This document shows, one piece after another, positions 4,465 to 56,334 of a stretch of 64,000 nucleotides of DNA. The stretch is from a virus. The position numbers and the translations under genes were made by a program. The stretch spans positions 1 to 64,000 of the IMG/VR virus record IMGVR_UViG_3300037807_000296; one strand, written 5' to 3'. How positions within the stretch are numbered: position 1 is the stretch's first letter; the number at the start of each line of letters is the position of its first letter. Under the pieces are notes generated by a model. The model worked only from the letters and a program-made list of their open reading frames with translations. It was not told the origin of the DNA and ran no database searches.

Positions 4465-4727
4465 TGTCGGATTCTAAAAGTAATTATGAAAATAGCAGTT
4501 ATGATTGTGAACACTTTATTTACGATTCGTTAATGCCTATGATTAGAAGTGTTGAGGAAAATCAATATCACCGTTATAGTGATGATATGCATGATGTGTT
4601 TTTAGATGTGTTTTGTATGGCGTATAGTGTAATGCGACATTCAGGTTGGTCTGAAGAGATGATAACTGAACAAATACATAATATAGATAGTAATGTTGAT
4701 TACAGTATTCAGGAAACTATACATTGA
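4464..4727 (+). CDS. Small protein between clamp and clamp loader, unknown
   Basis: This 87-residue acidic protein starts inside the gene 45 stop and ends overlapping the gene 44 start, so it is translated in the clamp operon. It is rich in Asp, Ser, Tyr and His and has no membrane segment. T4 has no gene at this place. I do not recognise the family; its position suggests an accessory replication role. Confidence 0.7.
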   Translation: MSDSKSNYENSSYDCEHFIYDSLMPMIRSVEENQYHRYSDDMHDVFLDVFCMAYSVMRHSGWSEEMITEQIHNIDSNVDYSIQETIH

Positions 4728-5668
4728 AAATGCAAATGATATGGGTTGAGAAGTATAGACCTCAAACGATTAAAGATTTAATTCTTCCTGATAAAGTAAA
4801 ATCTACTTTTGAAGATTATGTGAATAATGGAGATTTTACTCATTTAATGCTCACAAGTCCTAGTCCAGGAACTGGAAAAACTTCTTGTGCGAAAGCGTTG
4901 TGTCAAGATCTTGATTTTGATTATATAGTGATAAATGGTTCAAATGAAGGTCGTCAAATAGATGTTCTAAGAACATCTATGCTTAATTACGCTACTACTA
5001 TATCTCTCAATGGTAAACCTAAATGTATTATCATTGATGAAGCTGATCATCTTGGTCCTCAAGTACAGAAAGCGTTTCTTAATTTTCTTGAAGAACATTC
5101 AGATAAGGTTAGATTCATTCTAACCGCTAACAGTACTAATAAACTAATCGAGCCTATACATTCTAGAACTACAGAGATTAAATTTAATACTAGTAAAGCA
5201 GATAAACCTATGATGATGGCTACAATCATGAAACGATTGATGTTCATTCTCACAGAAGAAAAAATCGAACTTAAAGATCCTAAGATTTTAGCGACTCTTA
5301 TTGAGAAACATTATCCTGACAATAGACGGATTATTAATGAGCTTCAGAGATATTCGAGTTCAGGTGTGATAGATGTTGATGTACTTGAGATGTTATCTCA
5401 GGATCATATCAATGAGTTGGTTAATGCTTTAAAGAAGAAAGATTTTAATCAGATGCGAATTTGGGTTGGAGAGAATATGGATCATGATATTCAAGGAATG
5501 TTCAAAGTTGTATATGAATATATGCTCCCATTACTAAATCCTGCGAGTATCCCTGAAGCGGTTGTGATGATGAGTGAGTATATCCATAAATGTAATTTCG
5601 CAGTAGATTCAGAAATTCATTTAGTTGCTTTTTTTACAGAGTTGATGGTAACAGTTGAGTGGAAGTAA
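4724..5668 (+). CDS. 44: Clamp loader large subunit gp44
   Basis: This AAA+ ATPase opens and loads the gp45 clamp as a gp44/gp62 complex. Visible motifs are the N-terminal WVEKYRPQT signature, Walker A SPGTGKTS (about residues 47-54), Walker B IIIDEADHLG (about 99-108) and a sensor region around ILTANSTN. At 314 residues it matches T4 gp44 (319). The TTG start at 4724 has AGGAA eight bases upstream. ATG codons at 4730 and 4736 are alternatives that would shorten it by 2-4 residues. Confidence 0.94.
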   Translation: MKMQMIWVEKYRPQTIKDLILPDKVKSTFEDYVNNGDFTHLMLTSPSPGTGKTSCAKALCQDLDFDYIVINGSNEGRQIDVLRTSMLNYATTISLNGKPKCIIIDEADHLGPQVQKAFLNFLEEHSDKVRFILTANSTNKLIEPIHSRTTEIKFNTSKADKPMMMATIMKRLMFILTEEKIELKDPKILATLIEKHYPDNRRIINELQRYSSSGVIDVDVLEMLSQDHINELVNALKKKDFNQMRIWVGENMDHDIQGMFKVVYEYMLPLLNPASIPEAVVMMSEYIHKCNFAVDSEIHLVAFFTELMVTVEWK

Positions 5669-5669
5669 T

Positions 5670-6053
5670 ATGTCTAAAATAAATCCATTTGATTTTTTAA
5701 ACAAGATTAATAACAATGGGAATAATATTGTTAGAGATAATCCAGAACTAACATACCCAGAGTTTATGGTTAATAGAGGTATGTCACTTCACTCTGATAC
5801 AATCTTTCAAGCGTATCAGGCTGATCAAATGCACGATATACACGATGAAGCTAAAATGGATTATTATATCGGAAGTGTATCGAAAAGGAAACGATACAGT
5901 AAATGGCCAAAACAAGTTGCAGATGATGATGTAACGTTTATACAAGAGTTATATCAAGTTAATCGATATATAGCTGAAGATTATATTAAATTAATGCCTG
6001 ATAATGGTGTTGATATGCTTAGATCTAAGTATAATAAAGGAGGCATGGTTTAA
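5670..6053 (+). CDS. 62: Clamp loader small subunit gp62
   Basis: The non-ATPase subunit of the clamp loader. It has 127 residues from the ATG at 5670. It aligns with T4 gp62 across AKMDYYIGSVSKRKRYSKW and ELYQVN, the most conserved stretch of a poorly conserved family. It is shorter than T4 gp62 (187), losing mainly the C-terminal part. It follows gene 44 without a gap, the canonical 44-62-regA order. Confidence 0.8.
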   Translation: MSKINPFDFLNKINNNGNNIVRDNPELTYPEFMVNRGMSLHSDTIFQAYQADQMHDIHDEAKMDYYIGSVSKRKRYSKWPKQVADDDVTFIQELYQVNRYIAEDYIKLMPDNGVDMLRSKYNKGGMV

Positions 6054-6109
6054 CATTTTCTAGAATCATAAATAACTTGATATTAATGATTTACAGAGAA
6101 TATTGGATT

Positions 6110-6517
6110 ATGGAAATTGAAGAAGTTGTTAAATGGGATACCTCTCTTTTAATTAAAGTTGAGTTAATTGATACAGATAGTTTTCTAAAAATTAAAGAGA
6201 CATTGTCAAGGATAGGCATCAGTACAAAGGATAATGTATTATATCAAAGTTGTCATATACTACATAAACGTGGTGTATATTTCATAGTGCATTTTAAAGA
6301 GATGTTTGCTATGGATGGTAAACACGTGAATTTCACGTTGGAAGATATGACTAGACGGAATCGCATAACACTCTTATTAGAGGAATGGGGGTTATTGGAG
6401 ATAGTATCAGACAACTTCAATGAGCAACCAAGATCTGATTATAACAATTTTAAAGTTATACCTTATAAAGATAAACATAACTGGGAATTGATACCTAAAT
6501 ACAGTTTCGGGAGATAG
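6110..6517 (+). CDS. regA: Translational repressor RegA
   Basis: RegA binds ribosome-binding regions of early phage mRNAs and blocks their translation. The match to T4 RegA is strong: FLKIKETL, then VLYQSCHIL, YFIVHFKEM and a C-terminal HNWELIPKYSFG. From the ATG at 6110 it has 135 residues (T4 122). Upstream in-frame starts at 6077 (TTG) and 6086 (ATG) would add residues with no counterpart. Position between 62 and 43 is canonical. Confidence 0.92.
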   Translation: MEIEEVVKWDTSLLIKVELIDTDSFLKIKETLSRIGISTKDNVLYQSCHILHKRGVYFIVHFKEMFAMDGKHVNFTLEDMTRRNRITLLLEEWGLLEIVSDNFNEQPRSDYNNFKVIPYKDKHNWELIPKYSFGR

Positions 6518-6615
6518 ATGTTACCTGTGTATGAATGTATAGAGTTAAAATAAGCGGATAAACATACACAGTATTACTCCAGTTAATGACTAGTAATACA
6601 ACCAAAGGAATAATT

Positions 6616-7002
6616 ATGAGTACAAGTGAAGATATTTTTAAACAATTTGATGGCGAAAGTTTTGAATTTGGGATTGACTTCGTCGATAGCGTCAGCAAAG
6701 AACAAGAAGTTGATGACATTAAACAAGTAGTATCAGACAGCAATAGTAACCTAGAACATAAATTAGATGGACTAACATCTCACTTAGATCAATTAGCAGC
6801 TAAGATAGACTTTAGCGAATCTAAAGAATTAGTAGAAGCTAATGCGCAGCGCAAGGTGGTTGACATTGTGCAATTGATAGTACCTTTGCTTCGTAACCTA
6901 CAAAAATCTCCAGAATCAGATACCATTTATTGGCCTGGTTCTAAGAGGGTGCCGATGATCGATTCTCAGTTAAATAAGATGAAAGTGATATTAGATAGTT
7001 AA
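6616..7002 (+). CDS. Conserved T4-like phage protein of unknown function
   Basis: This 128-residue protein starts at ATG 6616 behind AAAGGAATAATT. It has an acidic N-terminal half, a helical middle (about residues 45-80) and a C-terminal motif TIYWPGSKRVPMID. I associate that motif with small conserved proteins of marine T4-like phages near gene 43. Its stop overlaps the convergent endonuclease stop at 6999. Function unknown. Confidence 0.75.
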   Translation: MSTSEDIFKQFDGESFEFGIDFVDSVSKEQEVDDIKQVVSDSNSNLEHKLDGLTSHLDQLAAKIDFSESKELVEANAQRKVVDIVQLIVPLLRNLQKSPESDTIYWPGSKRVPMIDSQLNKMKVILDS

Positions 7003-8297
7003 CTGTCTAGATAGAACCCTAGATCTTTCCACGTCAAACCAACAATATCATCCTCTGTTCCTAAATATTGAAGGTAGTTGTTACGAAGATAAGATAATTT
7101 GGTTATCACTTGGTTGAAATTTGTCCGTGCTAATCTTATGATCACAGATGGTGATAAGTGTGGTAATTGATCAGCCATTAATACTCCAGTTCTGAAACAC
7201 CCTAACTCAATATGACATATGTTACTATATCTAAATCCTTTAGTTTTGGTTGATTTTTTATGAGCTCTCTCAAATGAATTTAAACCAGTATCATCCACAT
7301 CGTTTAATTTTGTGCTAAGCATTTTAATACCAGCTCTCTTAAACGAATTTAAACCATTTTCATCTATATCATCTAATCTAGTGTTGAGGGTTTTGATACC
7401 AACTCTCTGAAACGTATTCAAACCATTTACATCTACATCATTTAATTTAGTCTCATTTCCTTTTCTTGTGTTTCGGATACAAGCATTCAAACCATTTTCG
7501 TCTATATCATTCAATTTAGTATTAAGCATTTTAACACCAACTCTCTGAAACGTATTCAAACCATTTTCGTCTATATCATTTAGTTTCGTATTAGATGCTT
7601 TAATACCAACCCTCTGAAATGTATTCAAACCATCTTCGTCTATGTTGTTTAGTTTAGACTCAATCATCCGTTTAGTTGATGGTATTTTAACATTATCAAT
7701 CCAATCAGGATCGTTGTAATGTGATTTAATTTTATCTACAGCTGCTACCCACACTGTAGATTTCCAATCAGGGTTATTGTGATACTTGCTGTTACTCTTA
7801 CCTATCTGGATGCATGCTGGTTTCCACACATCATTAACCCAATTTACATCTTCATGGTGTTTGGATATCTTCAAGCTAGTTCTGTTAAATTCATTTAACC
7901 CATTATCATCAATATTATTTCTTTTAGTTTCGAGTCCCTTATTAATACTTTCTACTGAATTCATAAACGAGTTAGCATACGATAGATTATAGAATAAAGG
8001 ATTTGAAGCTGCCTCATATTCTCTTTGTAACTTCTCCTCGTAATCTAAACAATCTTTCTTAAACGAAAATGTTTTAACGATAATGCGTTCTAATTGAGGG
8101 GATTGATTTTTTTGAAGGATCTTGAAATGCTCAACGGTAGAAGATCCAAAGTAAGTATCCTCTTCAGGATTAATATTTTTCTCAATGAGTTCTTTACGTG
8201 TTGAGGAACCAATATAATACTTCTCTGTTCCTATAGGATTGAGATCAGTAATAAGATAAACGTAAAAGTTGGGGCCGCTATAAATAGATGTATACAT
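6999..8297 (-). CDS. GIY-YIG homing endonuclease with DIDENGLN repeats
   Basis: Free-standing endonuclease of 432 residues, antisense between the preceding gene and gene 43. The N-terminal catalytic domain (about residues 1-95) has the GIY and YIG elements as YVYLI and KYYIGSS, an Arg just after, and a Glu in the CLDYEEKLQREY helix. About nine repeats of roughly 24 residues follow (core LNDIDENGLNTFQR), then a C-terminal segment ending WKDLGFYLDS. The RBS is TGGAG before ATG. Such enzymes cut intronless or inteinless alleles and spread by repair. The repeats probably form a DNA-binding linker. Confidence 0.9.
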   Translation of the reverse strand: MYTSIYSGPNFYVYLITDLNPIGTEKYYIGSSTRKELIEKNINPEEDTYFGSSTVEHFKILQKNQSPQLERIIVKTFSFKKDCLDYEEKLQREYEAASNPLFYNLSYANSFMNSVESINKGLETKRNNIDDNGLNEFNRTSLKISKHHEDVNWVNDVWKPACIQIGKSNSKYHNNPDWKSTVWVAAVDKIKSHYNDPDWIDNVKIPSTKRMIESKLNNIDEDGLNTFQRVGIKASNTKLNDIDENGLNTFQRVGVKMLNTKLNDIDENGLNACIRNTRKGNETKLNDVDVNGLNTFQRVGIKTLNTRLDDIDENGLNSFKRAGIKMLSTKLNDVDDTGLNSFERAHKKSTKTKGFRYSNICHIELGCFRTGVLMADQLPHLSPSVIIRLARTNFNQVITKLSYLRNNYLQYLGTEDDIVGLTWKDLGFYLDS

Positions 8298-49046: not shown

Positions 49047-49487
49047 ATGAAAATACAAAATGTTTCATATGCTGATATTGTTACAGGAGTTCACGTGAAT
49101 CCAGGAACAAACTCAATGCTTATACAGATTGTTGATCCTGGTATGGAATTTCCGTTGCCTAATCATCAGTTCAAAAGTATGCATCAGTTTGAATTTACAG
49201 ATGTTGAATGTTCTGATGATGTTGGTTGGGAGTCTAGAATAACAAAAGCACAAACACGAGACATCGCAAATTTAATTAGAAAAGCGAAGCACGGTGATAT
49301 GAATATAGTAGTTCATTGTGTTGCAGGCGTATGCCGTTCTGGTGCTGTGGTTGAAGTAGCAACGATGGCAGGTTTTGATGATATTCCTGGAATATTCAGA
49401 CTTCCAAATATATATGTTAAAAGGATGTTGATGGAAGAATTTGGATATTATGTAACAAAATCTGACTTTGATAATATATTTAAATAA
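49047..49487 (+). CDS. Dual-specificity phosphatase-like protein
   Basis: 146 residues. VVHCVAGVCRSGAV (about residues 89-102) is the HCX5R(S) active-site loop of cysteine phosphatases. Upstream ITKAQTRDIANLI and a downstream LPNIYVKRML helix fit a small DSP fold. It may dephosphorylate host proteins, RNA or nucleotides. Ends five bases before tRNA-Gln. Confidence 0.72.
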   Translation: MKIQNVSYADIVTGVHVNPGTNSMLIQIVDPGMEFPLPNHQFKSMHQFEFTDVECSDDVGWESRITKAQTRDIANLIRKAKHGDMNIVVHCVAGVCRSGAVVEVATMAGFDDIPGIFRLPNIYVKRMLMEEFGYYVTKSDFDNIFK

Positions 49488-51424: not shown

Positions 51425-51760
51425 ATGACATATGATGTTAAATATAACTCGATTGATGAAAACAGTCAAATAGAAGTTTTAAGGGTGTATATAGATATTG
51501 AATTCTTATCTGATGTACCAGTGATAATAAATATAATAGACGAGTCTGGTAAAAAATATGGTTCATTAAGTCATATTAACCATCCTAGTTTTGAAGCAAC
51601 TAGAACTCTACTAGAGGAAAAAGGATATTTGCTAGTAGAAAGGGGATGGTGTAATGGTGATGTAATATTAAGAGATTTTTATTTCAATGATAAGTTACTT
51701 AAAGCAGGCACGAGTTTTTATTCAGCAGTTGCTATGGGTATACGCTCTCAGTTTAATTGA
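51425..51760 (+). CDS. Unknown protein, 111 residues
   Basis: ATG 51425 follows GGAGGAGAATATCA, a strong ribosome site. Beta-rich (IEFLSDVPVIINIIDE). An upstream in-frame extension would run through tRNA-like sequence and is rejected. Its end overlaps the convergent capsid-like gene by 8 bases. Function unknown. Confidence 0.65.
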   Translation: MTYDVKYNSIDENSQIEVLRVYIDIEFLSDVPVIINIIDESGKKYGSLSHINHPSFEATRTLLEEKGYLLVERGWCNGDVILRDFYFNDKLLKAGTSFYSAVAMGIRSQFN

Positions 51761-52610
51761 TATCAAATTTCATTAACATTTCGGAACCGACAGAAGATAA
51801 TGGATTCATTGCTAAAGCATATCTATTGATGATTCCGATGTTATCTTGCATAGATTTGGAGAATGTGCTTGTTACAATTTCTTGTTGATAAGTTCCCATT
51901 ATTAAAGATGAAGAAGCACCGAATTCATCATTTTCCTCTTTAAGTCCTATGAACGCTTTAGTTGCACTAATGTCTGGATTTACATAGTATAGAGTTTTAC
52001 CTACACGTCCAACTATTAATCTTTTGCTTCTAGATGTTACATATTCACTTCCTCCAATATACGCATTCAATGCTGATATACTAGCAGCTGCTTTATATGG
52101 AAGGATAACAAAGGCATCATACGTTCGGAAATTAGGTGTATTCATTTTCATCACTAATTCTTGTACCCTCTGAGTGATCTCGAATAATGATGTTTCAGAG
52201 CTTCCTTTATCTGATAATGTTAAAACTGGTGTAGATAATGAGTTATTATCGAGATAATTTAGTAACGTATAATCTTCATTTGATTCTACTATACTCTTCA
52301 ATAATTTACTTGCATAATTTTGTCCTGTATCTCCATATTGAATAGATATATCTTTAATAGCTTCTGTAGATAAACCAGTTTGTAGTGGGTTAGATGTATC
52401 GGTATTTACTTGAAGAACACTTTCAACTGCTTCATAAGCATTTGAACCAGTTTGTTTCTTAATGTTTATTATCTTACCACTTGGTAATTTCATTGGTACT
52501 ATAGTAGCAATTTCACGCATTAATGATAAAGTTGGAAGCTCCTGAAAATTTGTGATTACATCATTAAAATTATATTGAGCTGCATTGTTTACTATTGTAT
52601 TTTCGTTCAT
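51753..52610 (-). CDS. Stand-alone capsid-like protein (gp23/gp24 fold suspected)
   Basis: 285 residues on the minus strand. The N-terminal LPTLSLMREIATIVPMKLPSGK resembles the P-domain entry of T4-type capsid proteins. The C-terminal VGRVGKTLYYVNPDISATKAFIGLK, followed by a long loop and INRYALAMNPLSS, resembles the gp23 end region. It is much shorter than gp23 (about 520). A minus-strand GATAAATA lies 25 bases upstream, with AAGGAAT as ribosome site, so late expression is expected. Could be a minor vertex or decoration paralogue. Similarity judged by eye. Confidence 0.5.
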   Translation of the reverse strand: MNENTIVNNAAQYNFNDVITNFQELPTLSLMREIATIVPMKLPSGKIINIKKQTGSNAYEAVESVLQVNTDTSNPLQTGLSTEAIKDISIQYGDTGQNYASKLLKSIVESNEDYTLLNYLDNNSLSTPVLTLSDKGSSETSLFEITQRVQELVMKMNTPNFRTYDAFVILPYKAAASISALNAYIGGSEYVTSRSKRLIVGRVGKTLYYVNPDISATKAFIGLKEENDEFGASSSLIMGTYQQEIVTSTFSKSMQDNIGIINRYALAMNPLSSVGSEMLMKFDIN

Positions 52611-53115: not shown

Positions 53116-53119
53116 AAAT

Positions 53120-53261
53120 TCAACGTAGACATCTCTAAATGGAATGTTTCTATAGTATGAGTGTTATGTTCAAAGGCAGTAAAATTCCAGCAGATTATAT
53201 TAAGAAACAGTTACCGTACAAAAGAGTAGAGTACGAATATACAAGGATGTTAGATTTATGA
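53120..53261 (+). pseudogene. Remnant copy of the BspA-like repeat gene
   Basis: FNVDISKWNVS, then a break at a TGA, then in another frame MFKGSKIPADYIKKQLPYKR to RMLDL and a stop. This matches the end of the intact gene at 53258 (MFKGNKIPAD, KKQLPFKR, LDL). A duplicated copy reduced to one repeat plus the C-terminus. Confidence 0.7.
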
Positions 53262-53905
53262 TTAAAATCAGCGACAAGGCACATCTAAAGAGTATTATTA
53301 ATGAAAGATTAGATGATGCAGATTTAAATGATCTTGATGTTTCTAAAGTGACTGATATGGATTCTGTGTTTTATGAGTCTCAATTCAATGGGGATATCTC
53401 TAAATGGAATGTCTCTAAAGTAACTAATATGAGTTATATGTTCTATAATTCTCAATTCAATGGGGACATCTCTAAATGGAATGTTTCTAAAGTAACTGAT
53501 ATGTCTAGTATGTTCCAAGATTCTCAATTCAATGGGGATATATCTAAATGGAATGCTTCTAAAGTGAAAAATATGAGTTATATGTTTTATAATTCTCCGT
53601 TCAACAGGGACATCTCTAAATGGAAGACTTCTAATGTGACTAGTACATACTCAATGTTTATAAATTCTCCGTTCAACGGAGATATCTCTAAATGGGATAC
53701 TTCTAAAGTAACTAATATGAGTTATATGTTCTATAATTCTCAATTCAATGGAGATATTTCTAAGTGGAATACTTCTAAAGTGATGTATACAACCTCTATG
53801 TTCAAAGGTAATAAAATTCCAGCAGATTCAATAGAAGATTATATTAAGAAACAACTGCCATTTAAAAGAATCGGTAGGAAATTTATGAAGGTGTTAGATT
53901 TGTAA
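53258..53905 (+). CDS. BspA-like repeat protein (DUF285)
   Basis: 215 residues. After a 30-residue start (MIKISDKAHLKSIINERLDD), six repeats of about 25 residues follow (core FNGDISKWNVSKVTNMSYMF). This is the DUF285/BspA leucine-rich-like family of bacterial surface proteins, linked elsewhere to adhesion. No signal peptide. Function in a phage unknown; protein binding is likely. Confidence 0.82.
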   Translation: MIKISDKAHLKSIINERLDDADLNDLDVSKVTDMDSVFYESQFNGDISKWNVSKVTNMSYMFYNSQFNGDISKWNVSKVTDMSSMFQDSQFNGDISKWNASKVKNMSYMFYNSPFNRDISKWKTSNVTSTYSMFINSPFNGDISKWDTSKVTNMSYMFYNSQFNGDISKWNTSKVMYTTSMFKGNKIPADSIEDYIKKQLPFKRIGRKFMKVLDL

Positions 53906-53985: not shown

Positions 53986-54552
53986 ATGATACACACTAAA
54001 CTATTATTAGCGGGAGCGATTACTGCATCATTATCTGGATGTGTAACGAATCCACTAACATCAAATGATTCTGATTTATCTACTATGGGACCAGAAACAC
54101 AAGTACCGAGTTGGTACTTAAATTTTCCAGAGGATGATGATGTGATTTATGCATCAGGTACAGGTATCTCAGATGACCTTCAATTCAGTATGAAAAAGGC
54201 TACTCACTCTGCTAAAGTGTCATTAGGAGATAAGATTGCTTCTGATGTAGGTGCTCAGTTCAAATCTTATACTGCTGATAATAGTTCAGGTGGACAAGGT
54301 CGAACAACATCAGAAAGTGAGAGTGTATCGAAATCTGGATTTAAAGATGTATCGATTCGTGGATATGATATTATAGAGAAGGCTGCATTCAAAGACTCAA
54401 CTGGATTTTATAGAACTTACGTTCTTGTATCTCTATCATTAGATGGTCCTCAATTCACTGAAGGTGATTATAATAAACCACAAGTGATTGAGATTAACAC
54501 TTATAGTGAAGGGGATCATAATAAAGCTTCTGAAGCGTTTAAGAGATTTTAA
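53986..54552 (+). CDS. Lipoprotein (LPP20-like)
   Basis: 188 residues. Signal peptide with lipobox LSGC (Cys about residue 19). VPSWYLNFPEDDDVIYASGTG, the alanine-rich helix ATHSAKVSLGDKIA and YRTYVLVSLSL match LPP20-type outer-membrane lipoproteins. A phage copy could modify the host envelope or aid exclusion. RBS GGGAGAT. Confidence 0.75.
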   Translation: MIHTKLLLAGAITASLSGCVTNPLTSNDSDLSTMGPETQVPSWYLNFPEDDDVIYASGTGISDDLQFSMKKATHSAKVSLGDKIASDVGAQFKSYTADNSSGGQGRTTSESESVSKSGFKDVSIRGYDIIEKAAFKDSTGFYRTYVLVSLSLDGPQFTEGDYNKPQVIEINTYSEGDHNKASEAFKRF

Positions 54553-54810: not shown

Positions 54811-54831
54811 TCCGAATATCCTGGGCATATG

Positions 54832-54890
54832 ATGTAATCTCCTTGCATCGCTTAGCGCTGGGGGATTATTGTGATCCGCGCCAGCTCTAA
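54832..54890 (+). other. Structured RNA element, unassigned
   Basis: TAATCTCC pairs with GGGGATTA, and GCTGG pairs with CCAGC in a competing fold. GATG/CATC adds a third helix. GC content exceeds the surroundings. Could be a tRNA relic or regulatory RNA. Confidence 0.35.
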
Positions 54891-54933
54891 ATTAGGTATA
54901 ATATGTTAAAAATGTGCAATTTTAACGTTTTAA

Positions 54934-54941
54934 GATAAATA
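54934..54941 (+). promoter_or_regulatory. Late promoter octamer GATAAATA
   Basis: Intergenic GATAAATAAAG about 155 bases upstream of the flagellin-like gene. Confidence 0.45.
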
Positions 54942-55096
54942 AAGATAGGGATTGATCGGATTCCCTTAAAATAACCGGCAGAATAGATGTTGAGTTGTAT
55001 AGTATACTGTCAAAGAACAGATCTTGCAAACTCCTAAAATAGTAAAACAAAGGCCACTTTGGTCATTATTTAATTACAATTCTTAGGAGAATTATT

Positions 55097-55336
55097 ATGT
55101 TTGGAATTTCCAATCTACAAAGCCCTGTTATGGGTTCTATTGACCGTACAGATACTCGTATGAGTCAAGTTGGTAAAATGTTATCAACTGGTAAAAATGA
55201 TTTAAACGCTGCTCAAACGGGTATGGTGACACGTCTTAATGCATCTATTGCTGGATTTGATGCAGCACAAGATAATATTACAAATCTATACACATTCTTA
55301 ACTCTGCTATCAAAACACGTGACTTCAAAAAATTGA
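55097..55336 (+). CDS. Flagellin N-terminal-like protein, frame broken before C-terminal part
   Basis: 79 residues. SIDRTDTRMSQVGKMLSTGK, then VTRLNASIAGFDAAQDNI, resemble the N-terminal D0/D1 helices of flagellins. After that the frame gives LYTFLTLLSKHV and stops. A -1 shift near 55290 gives ILNSAIKTRDFKKLMIVQST to a stop at about 55381, which resembles a flagellin C-terminal helix. A mini-flagellin lacking the variable domain is implied, either frameshifted or disabled. The FlaG-like gene next door supports the call. RBS AGGAGA. Confidence 0.55.
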   Translation: MFGISNLQSPVMGSIDRTDTRMSQVGKMLSTGKNDLNAAQTGMVTRLNASIAGFDAAQDNITNLYTFLTLLSKHVTSKN

Positions 55337-55383
55337 TGATCGTTCAAAGCACTATAGGCACGTTACTAAACGGATGGTAAATA

Positions 55384-55749
55384 ATGGATACTTCAGTAAT
55401 ACAAACTAACATTTCATCATCAATTTCTATTCCAGGAGCAATGGTACCAGATCGAGATAATTCTAGAGTTATTGAAGTAGATGCATTAGATCTTAAAGCA
55501 ACTGAGACTGTTGCTAATGTTACTGAAACTGATATCATTAACGTGAACAAAGCGTTATATAATCAGAATCACTCAGTTCGATTTGAGATGGTTGAAGATC
55601 ACTCGGTAATAAAAATAACAGATACTACTACTGATAAAGTCATTCGAGAAATTCCATCCGAAACATCTAGAGCAATTATCGATGCAATCAAAGAAAAATT
55701 AGCTAATAATGAAGATGTTATAGGAACATTAATCAATGAAATTGTCTAA
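55384..55749 (+). CDS. FlaG-like protein
   Basis: 121 residues. The C-terminal NHSVRFEMVEDHSVIKITD, then TDKVIREIPSETSRAI match the FlaG family (beta-rich segment, V(I/V)REIPPE motif, terminal helix). FlaG sits next to flagellin in bacterial flagellar operons and affects filament length. No ribosome site stronger than ACGGATGG. Overlaps the HNH gene. Confidence 0.72.
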   Translation: MDTSVIQTNISSSISIPGAMVPDRDNSRVIEVDALDLKATETVANVTETDIINVNKALYNQNHSVRFEMVEDHSVIKITDTTTDKVIREIPSETSRAIIDAIKEKLANNEDVIGTLINEIV

Positions 55750-56047
55750 GTGTGAATTGTGTGATAGAGATATACCTGATAATGAAATCTCTATGCACCA
55801 TCTGATACCTAAAACATTTAAAGGTAAACGAGATGATTCTAATTTATTAACTTTACATAAAGTGTGTCATATGAAGTTACATTCACTTTTCTCTGAGAGA
55901 GATATGTTACATTTATACAATACTTTGGATATGATTAAAACTGATAAGAATATAGAGAAATTTGTAAAATGGATAATCAAGAAGCCGATTGAATTCAATG
56001 ATAGCAGTAAAGACTCTATATCAAGAAAAGGTAAACGAAGGTATTAA
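55736..56047 (+). CDS. HNH endonuclease-like protein
   Basis: 103 residues. CELCDRDIPDNEISMHHLIP, then NLLTLHKVCHMKLH give the two-Cys plus HH...N...H HNH fold. A basic C-terminus (SRKGKRRY). Could be a homing or host-DNA nuclease. Overlaps the FlaG-like gene by 14 bases. Confidence 0.8.
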   Translation: MKLSKCELCDRDIPDNEISMHHLIPKTFKGKRDDSNLLTLHKVCHMKLHSLFSERDMLHLYNTLDMIKTDKNIEKFVKWIIKKPIEFNDSSKDSISRKGKRRY

Positions 56048-56334
56048 TTGAATTCTTCTGGGTGAATAGGTTGATCTAAAAACAACTTTAACGCTACTAG
56101 AATCTCATGTAATGTAACTTCTTTGAACCACTCACCTTTTAACCGTTTATTTGAGAATTTTTGGTGAAGATATTTTTCCGCTTTTTCAGGTTTGTAGCGT
56201 TCTTCAATGTGAATGACATTGATTTCATGAGCATTACCAGTTTGTAACGATTTCAATCTATTTGTGATATTATTCGTTATTCCTATTTTATAATACCCGT
56301 TGCATTCTAATACATATAGTTGATCACTTTTCAT
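56044..56334 (-). CDS. GIY-YIG superfamily protein (T5orf172/MUG113 type)
   Basis: 96 residues, minus strand, overlapping the HNH stop by 4 bases. LYVLECNGYYKIGITNNITN (GIY and YIG-like), NRLKSLQTGN, EKYLHQKF and GEWFK are the T5orf172 signature. Unrelated in detail to the large cassette endonucleases. Function unknown. Confidence 0.82.
   Translation of the reverse strand: MKSDQLYVLECNGYYKIGITNNITNRLKSLQTGNAHEINVIHIEERYKPEKAEKYLHQKFSNKRLKGEWFKEVTLHEILVALKLFLDQPIHPEEFN

Follow-up and report, generated by a model that had tools for sequence, protein, structure and literature searches.

A T4-superfamily phage carries a gene for FlaG, and our analysis suggests that the phage protein turns down host flagellum building. 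In the explanation that we favor, which we put slightly short of an even chance, a captured flaG throttles flagellin export in the host and the short reading frame in front of it (ORF1) is a remnant. The original prediction had read this locus as encoding a mini-flagellin that could poison or cap host filaments; an effect on host flagella is still the best reading, via FlaG rather than via a capping mini-flagellin.

A FlaG-domain protein in a T4-superfamily phage

The window that we analyzed covers 64,000 bases of the IMG/VR virus record IMGVR_UViG_3300037807_000296, which is 65,294 bases long. Both reading frames named in the original prediction are present, with a further gene on either side:

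53986..54552, plus strand: lipoprotein-like phage gene upstream of ORF1 and flaG, with homologues in other T4-like phages
55097..55336, plus strand: ORF1, 79 aa, a possible truncated flagellin N-terminus with a sub-threshold PF00669 match and a predicted single long helix
55384..55749, plus strand: flaG (ORF2), FlaG-domain protein of 121 aa, domain at approximately residues 42-117 (PF03646)
55736..56047, plus strand: HNH endonuclease gene (PF01844, E=1.4e-8), its start overlapping the end of flaG by 14 nt

ORF2 is a real FlaG. It matches Pfam PF03646 with 43.5 bits (E=3.7e-11), well above the curated cut-off of 23.8, with weaker matches to the NCBIfam FlaG models, and an alignment of FlaG proteins shows that it retains the family's invariant columns. 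With bacterial FlaG proteins carrying this domain (Thiomicrorhabdus FlaG1, Campylobacter jejuni FlaG, Helicobacter FlaG 6jsx and Bacillus YvyC 2hc5) it shares a D-x-x-T-x-x-VIR-x-IP motif and a predicted alpha-beta-beta-beta-alpha core. An AlphaFold2 model, built on an 11-row alignment and of modest confidence (core pLDDT ~72-79), consists of a helix, three strands and a helix, and its only confident fold matches in the PDB were 2hc5 and 6jsx, at probabilities of 1.00 and 0.98 but with E-values of only 0.03; these are the two solved FlaG structures and the top two matches of the model. The proposal of a convincing FlaG domain was thus borne out by profile and fold, as well as by the gene's context and its occurrence in three identical contigs.

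The virus carrying flaG is a T4-superfamily phage, having both the replication and the structural genes of that group. By PHROGs, its genome encodes a DNA polymerase, SbcC/D-like proteins, UvsX, a DnaB-like helicase, ribonucleotide reductase and topoisomerase II, to which a DNA ligase gene and seven tRNAs are added, and genes for the gp20 portal and gp23 capsid proteins lie on an overlapping contig (L138). Its DNA polymerase is at most ~37% identical to those of the best-ranked INPHARED phages, and INPHARED contains no DNA-level relative of the flaG region. The T4 late promoter motif occurred in the window less often than expected by chance.

Several other features of this genome deserve mention. 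A second gp23-like gene (window 51753-52610, minus strand, 285 aa; phrog_24114, weak Gp23) is separate from the true gp23 on L138, and the tRNA region contains a gene resembling dual-specificity or tyrosine phosphatases (window 49047-49487; PF00782/PF00102). DUF285 repeat genes with 72-nt repeats are found at window 53117-53905 and at 1422-4495 of L137, a 16.7 kb stretch of contig 3300037842_000443 that runs from near window position 63.4 kb past the window end; a decayed partial DUF285 copy just upstream, and several similar-looking genes beyond the window, suggest local expansion. L137 also encodes, at 4574-7267, an 897-aa subtilase of the same phage (Peptidase_S8, E=2.3e-49) with a signal-peptide-like start, a secreted protease being unusual in a T4-like phage.

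flaG as an old resident of the phage genome

That FlaG was found in no other phage or virus record searched, save one unannotated faecal contig, might be put down to host contamination or a chimeric assembly. This explanation is largely refuted, and we regard it as very improbable: two further IMG/VR contigs are 100% identical across 12 kb at the flaG locus, such that three contigs (assemblies that may represent the same virus population) are continuous there, phage genes occupy both flanks, and codon usage is phage-like. The upstream lipoprotein, presumably LPP20-like, has tblastn matches in phages of Methylophilales (E=6e-12) and Pelagibacter (E=6e-8) and is found at 42% identity in other IMG/VR contigs; its occurrence in further T4-like phages shows that the locus belongs to the phage. 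The T4-like contigs with a homologue of this gene are without FlaG.

Codon usage in flaG scores 0.45 per codon, compared with a phage gene mean of 0.39, and DNA similarity to bacterial flaG is confined to short pieces of at most 54 nt. Since the codon usage is phage-like and so little DNA similarity is left, flaG is not a recent insert but an old resident of the phage, whose frame stayed open. These observations bear on whether FlaG is merely baggage of a recent host capture, with no role of its own. The decayed look of the adjoining ORF1, and the absence of the gene from the other phages searched, are in keeping with passive carriage; however, flaG is intact over 121 codons with phage codon usage and conserved invariant columns, even though hardly any similarity to bacterial flaG is left at the DNA level, which is not what a recent unselected insert would look like. 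We consider passive carriage rather improbable.

In its immediate surroundings, flaG differs from its bacterial counterparts, in that no fliD or fliS adjoins it and the HNH endonuclease gene follows instead. A flagellin-flaG-fliD-fliS cluster is in any case a matter of context and does not define a FlaG by sequence. The HNH gene is one of two nuclease genes beside flaG (window 55736-56334), the other being convergent and T5orf172/MUG113 nuclease-like. On the other side of the pair, 286 nt without a long ORF (window 54811-55096) stand out in a dense region, with a small hairpin at their end, just before the ribosome-binding site of ORF1; Rfam matched no RNA element in the region, this stretch included.

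The phage might also have recruited FlaG for another job, such as a secreted extracellular role or a part of the virion. The FlaG of Campylobacter is a secreted protein whose effects extend past length control to biofilm formation (PMC12445086), but around phage flaG we saw neither a secretion signal nor a neighbourhood of structural genes; the gene sits between small early-type genes and nucleases. Such a recruitment appears distinctly unlikely to us.

Distribution and nearest relatives of the phage FlaG

The collections searched contain no second clear example of a phage-carried FlaG. Pattern scans for the FlaG motif across 2.9 million viral contigs of IMG/VR returned 22 and 50 candidate stretches, of which only this phage was confirmed. 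Neither the phage FlaG nor Thiomicrorhabdus FlaG, used as tblastn queries against INPHARED, found a counterpart in isolated phages, and a FlaG consensus matched only the unannotated faecal contig; both approaches depend on short conserved stretches, which diverged copies can escape. FlaG was not found in plasmids, nor in divergent phage relatives among the records searched, and literature searches on phage-encoded FlaG returned no paper. INPHARED does list phage 'flagellins', yet these are full flagellins on short or unannotated records and are probably host DNA.

When 39 FlaG proteins were placed in a tree, that of the phage fell, on a long branch (2.43), into a group whose other members are all Thiomicrospiraceae (NCBI Piscirickettsiaceae; Thiomicrorhabdus), with support of 91/88. 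Its C-terminus, GTLINEIV, matches the Thiomicrospiraceae TG-x-L-x-NEII, a G-x-L-x-NEI ending that is common to the first FlaG of that family. An alternative tree in which the Thiomicrospiraceae are held together without the phage was equally good (p-AU 0.49). The nearest relatives of the phage FlaG thus appear to be those of Thiomicrospiraceae, with tree support that is not decisive, and, judging by the FlaG tree alone, the host is probably a polar-flagellated gammaproteobacterium related to that family. FlaG is present in 57/63 Thiomicrospiraceae genomes and flagellin in 62/63.

The resemblance of ORF1 to flagellin

In Thiomicrorhabdus, two flagellin genes are followed by flaG1 and then flaG2, flagellin and flaG1 being 45 nt apart, and the proposal that the phage pair mirrors the order of bacterial operons was confirmed to this extent: phage flaG is likewise placed directly after a flagellin-like ORF. 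ORF1 itself is preceded by TTAGGAG, a strong ribosome-binding site. Its resemblance to the N-terminal helices of flagellin, on which the original prediction relied, proved suggestive only. Against PF00669, ORF1 scores 15.9 bits (E=0.014), below the cut-off of 26.6, and this E-value alone is at noise level, because unrelated families reach E=0.0097-0.06 in the same Pfam scans of other proteins. Profile searches of the two ORFs therefore supported half of the proposed pair, with FlaG above its cut-off and flagellin below.

ORF1 could instead be a short helical protein of the phage that has no relation to flagellin and precedes flaG by chance, leaving FlaG as the only flagellar element, and we give this possibility a chance not far below even. 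Apart from the sub-threshold profile match, hhalign assigned ORF1 a probability of only 0.8%, and a search of 399 proteobacterial genomes yielded 28 matches, mostly by chance, of which ~13 are proteins that we take to be carbamoyl-phosphate synthase, while flagellins account for 2, both in one genome. The structure model is one straight helix (residues 8-78, pLDDT 87.6), a prediction that would fit flagellin but also much else, and is not specific. On the other side, the PF00669 match is in the right register (ORF1 residues 11-62 to profile positions 10-65), and with a custom HMM of 77 flagellin N-termini ORF1 scores 8.6 bits, a value reached by 11/5000 shuffles (0.2%), and ranks first among 732 phage ORFs, though only 1 bit above a chance match. 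The position of ORF1 before flaG further raises the odds of a flagellin origin, which we consider about even and not statistically secure. ORF1 is probably, then, either what remains of a decaying flagellin gene or a helical protein of other origin.

Relatives of ORF1 in IMG/VR were found in the same phage only. A similarity to a Campylobacter phage 'endolysin' (E=0.7-0.9; phrog_38472, E=0.006) was dismissed as resemblance at the coiled-coil level. The pair of ORF1 and flaG, which the original prediction proposed to look for in related phages, was present in no other phage searched, so that recurrence cannot support it.

A frame break and apparent decay at the 3' end of ORF1

Codon usage is coding-like in frame 0 of ORF1 until ~55275, whereas frame -1, which is open from ~55264 until the stop codon 55378-55380 that lies three bases ahead of the ORF2 ATG, is favored after ~55290. 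The -1 frame falls into two parts:

55294..55329, plus strand: -1 frame stretch ILNSAIKTRDFK, 12 codons, with a coding-like score; ORF1 probably continues here after losing its frame near 55280-55304
55330..55380, plus strand: -1 frame tail KLMIVQSTIGTLLNGW ending in a stop; open, yet without coding character, the degenerate rest of the 3' end

The codon-usage score of the first part equals the median of real phage genes and is reached by only 0.2% of open off-frame windows. The 16 codons after 55330 resemble off-frame sequence in their score, with 47.5% of the open off-frame windows doing at least as well and just 0.2% of in-frame windows as poorly. The frame break is real as to coding potential, and is identical in the three assemblies, possibly of the same virus population.

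A C-terminal flagellin helix had been suspected in this frame. The tail does not look like a flagellin C-terminus (its score is matched by 465/2000 shuffles) and has no Pfam match, including to the flagellin C-terminal helical domain (PF00700). We therefore rejected a programmed frameshift into such a helix, as the tail is neither flagellin-like nor, past 55330, coding-like, and we read the 3' end of ORF1 as having lost its frame and then decayed, not as shifting by program to a second helix.

This pattern argues against a functional mini-flagellin, that is, an ORF1 product, perhaps extended with a C-terminal helix by a -1 frameshift, that is exported and poisons or caps host filaments. The strong ribosome-binding site, the coding scores of frame 0 and then of ~12 codons of frame -1, and an A-rich slip-like stretch just before the frame-0 stop are what such a protein would call for; but inspection revealed no slippery site near 55290, where the coding frame changes, the flagellin signal is below threshold, the tail has no C-terminal flagellin signal, and ORF1 is kept in no relatives. 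A mini-flagellin at work is unlikely, and we rate this explanation as quite improbable. Compared with the N-terminal region of bacterial flagellin, ORF1 has in its favor the weak match in register, the helical prediction and its place before flaG, but it also has no D1-D3 region.

A proposed model for phage control of flagellin export

Recent work has shown that, in polar flagellates, FlaG controls how long the filament becomes, through competition at FlhA with the delivery of flagellin. In Campylobacter jejuni, FlaG vies with FliS, the chaperone of flagellin, for adjacent sites on FlhA in the export gate, and FlaG lowers flagellin delivery, resulting in shorter filaments (PMC12445086, which cites the original work, doi 10.1073/pnas.2414393121). 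By analogy, we chart the following model. A T4-superfamily phage would have captured a host flaG, probably along with the adjoining flagellin gene, and its domain, fold, context and phage-like codon usage show that flaG was then retained intact. In the infected cell, phage FlaG would compete with the FliS-flagellin complex for binding to FlhA, a protein of the export gate, so that the filament would receive less flagellin and grow more slowly or not at all. Speculatively, the phage might thereby save protein synthesis or admit fewer flagellum-dependent rival phages. ORF1 would, most likely though tentatively, be what is left of a flagellin gene, truncated and decaying, and would have no function itself. 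At ~25-47% identity to any bacterial FlaG, the phage protein may not retain the FlhA-binding surface. A complete shutdown of filament assembly at the FlhA gate in infection, by FlaG and perhaps also by an N-terminal piece of flagellin that is exported with it, seems doubtful to us.

As a single host gene among small phage genes, with phage codon usage, flaG resembles the host-derived auxiliary genes (morons) of T4-like phages, but no flagellar-length regulator is known among these from the other phage records or the literature searched. Such a shutdown, if it occurs, would mean that a phage has taken over the type III export switch of the flagellum, something not found in the other phage records searched. 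The Thiomicrospiraceae provide a testable guess at the host of this T4-like virus, a FlaG-carrying phage offers a natural experiment on the FlhA switch, and phage flaG would point to flagellum control as a target in lytic infection.
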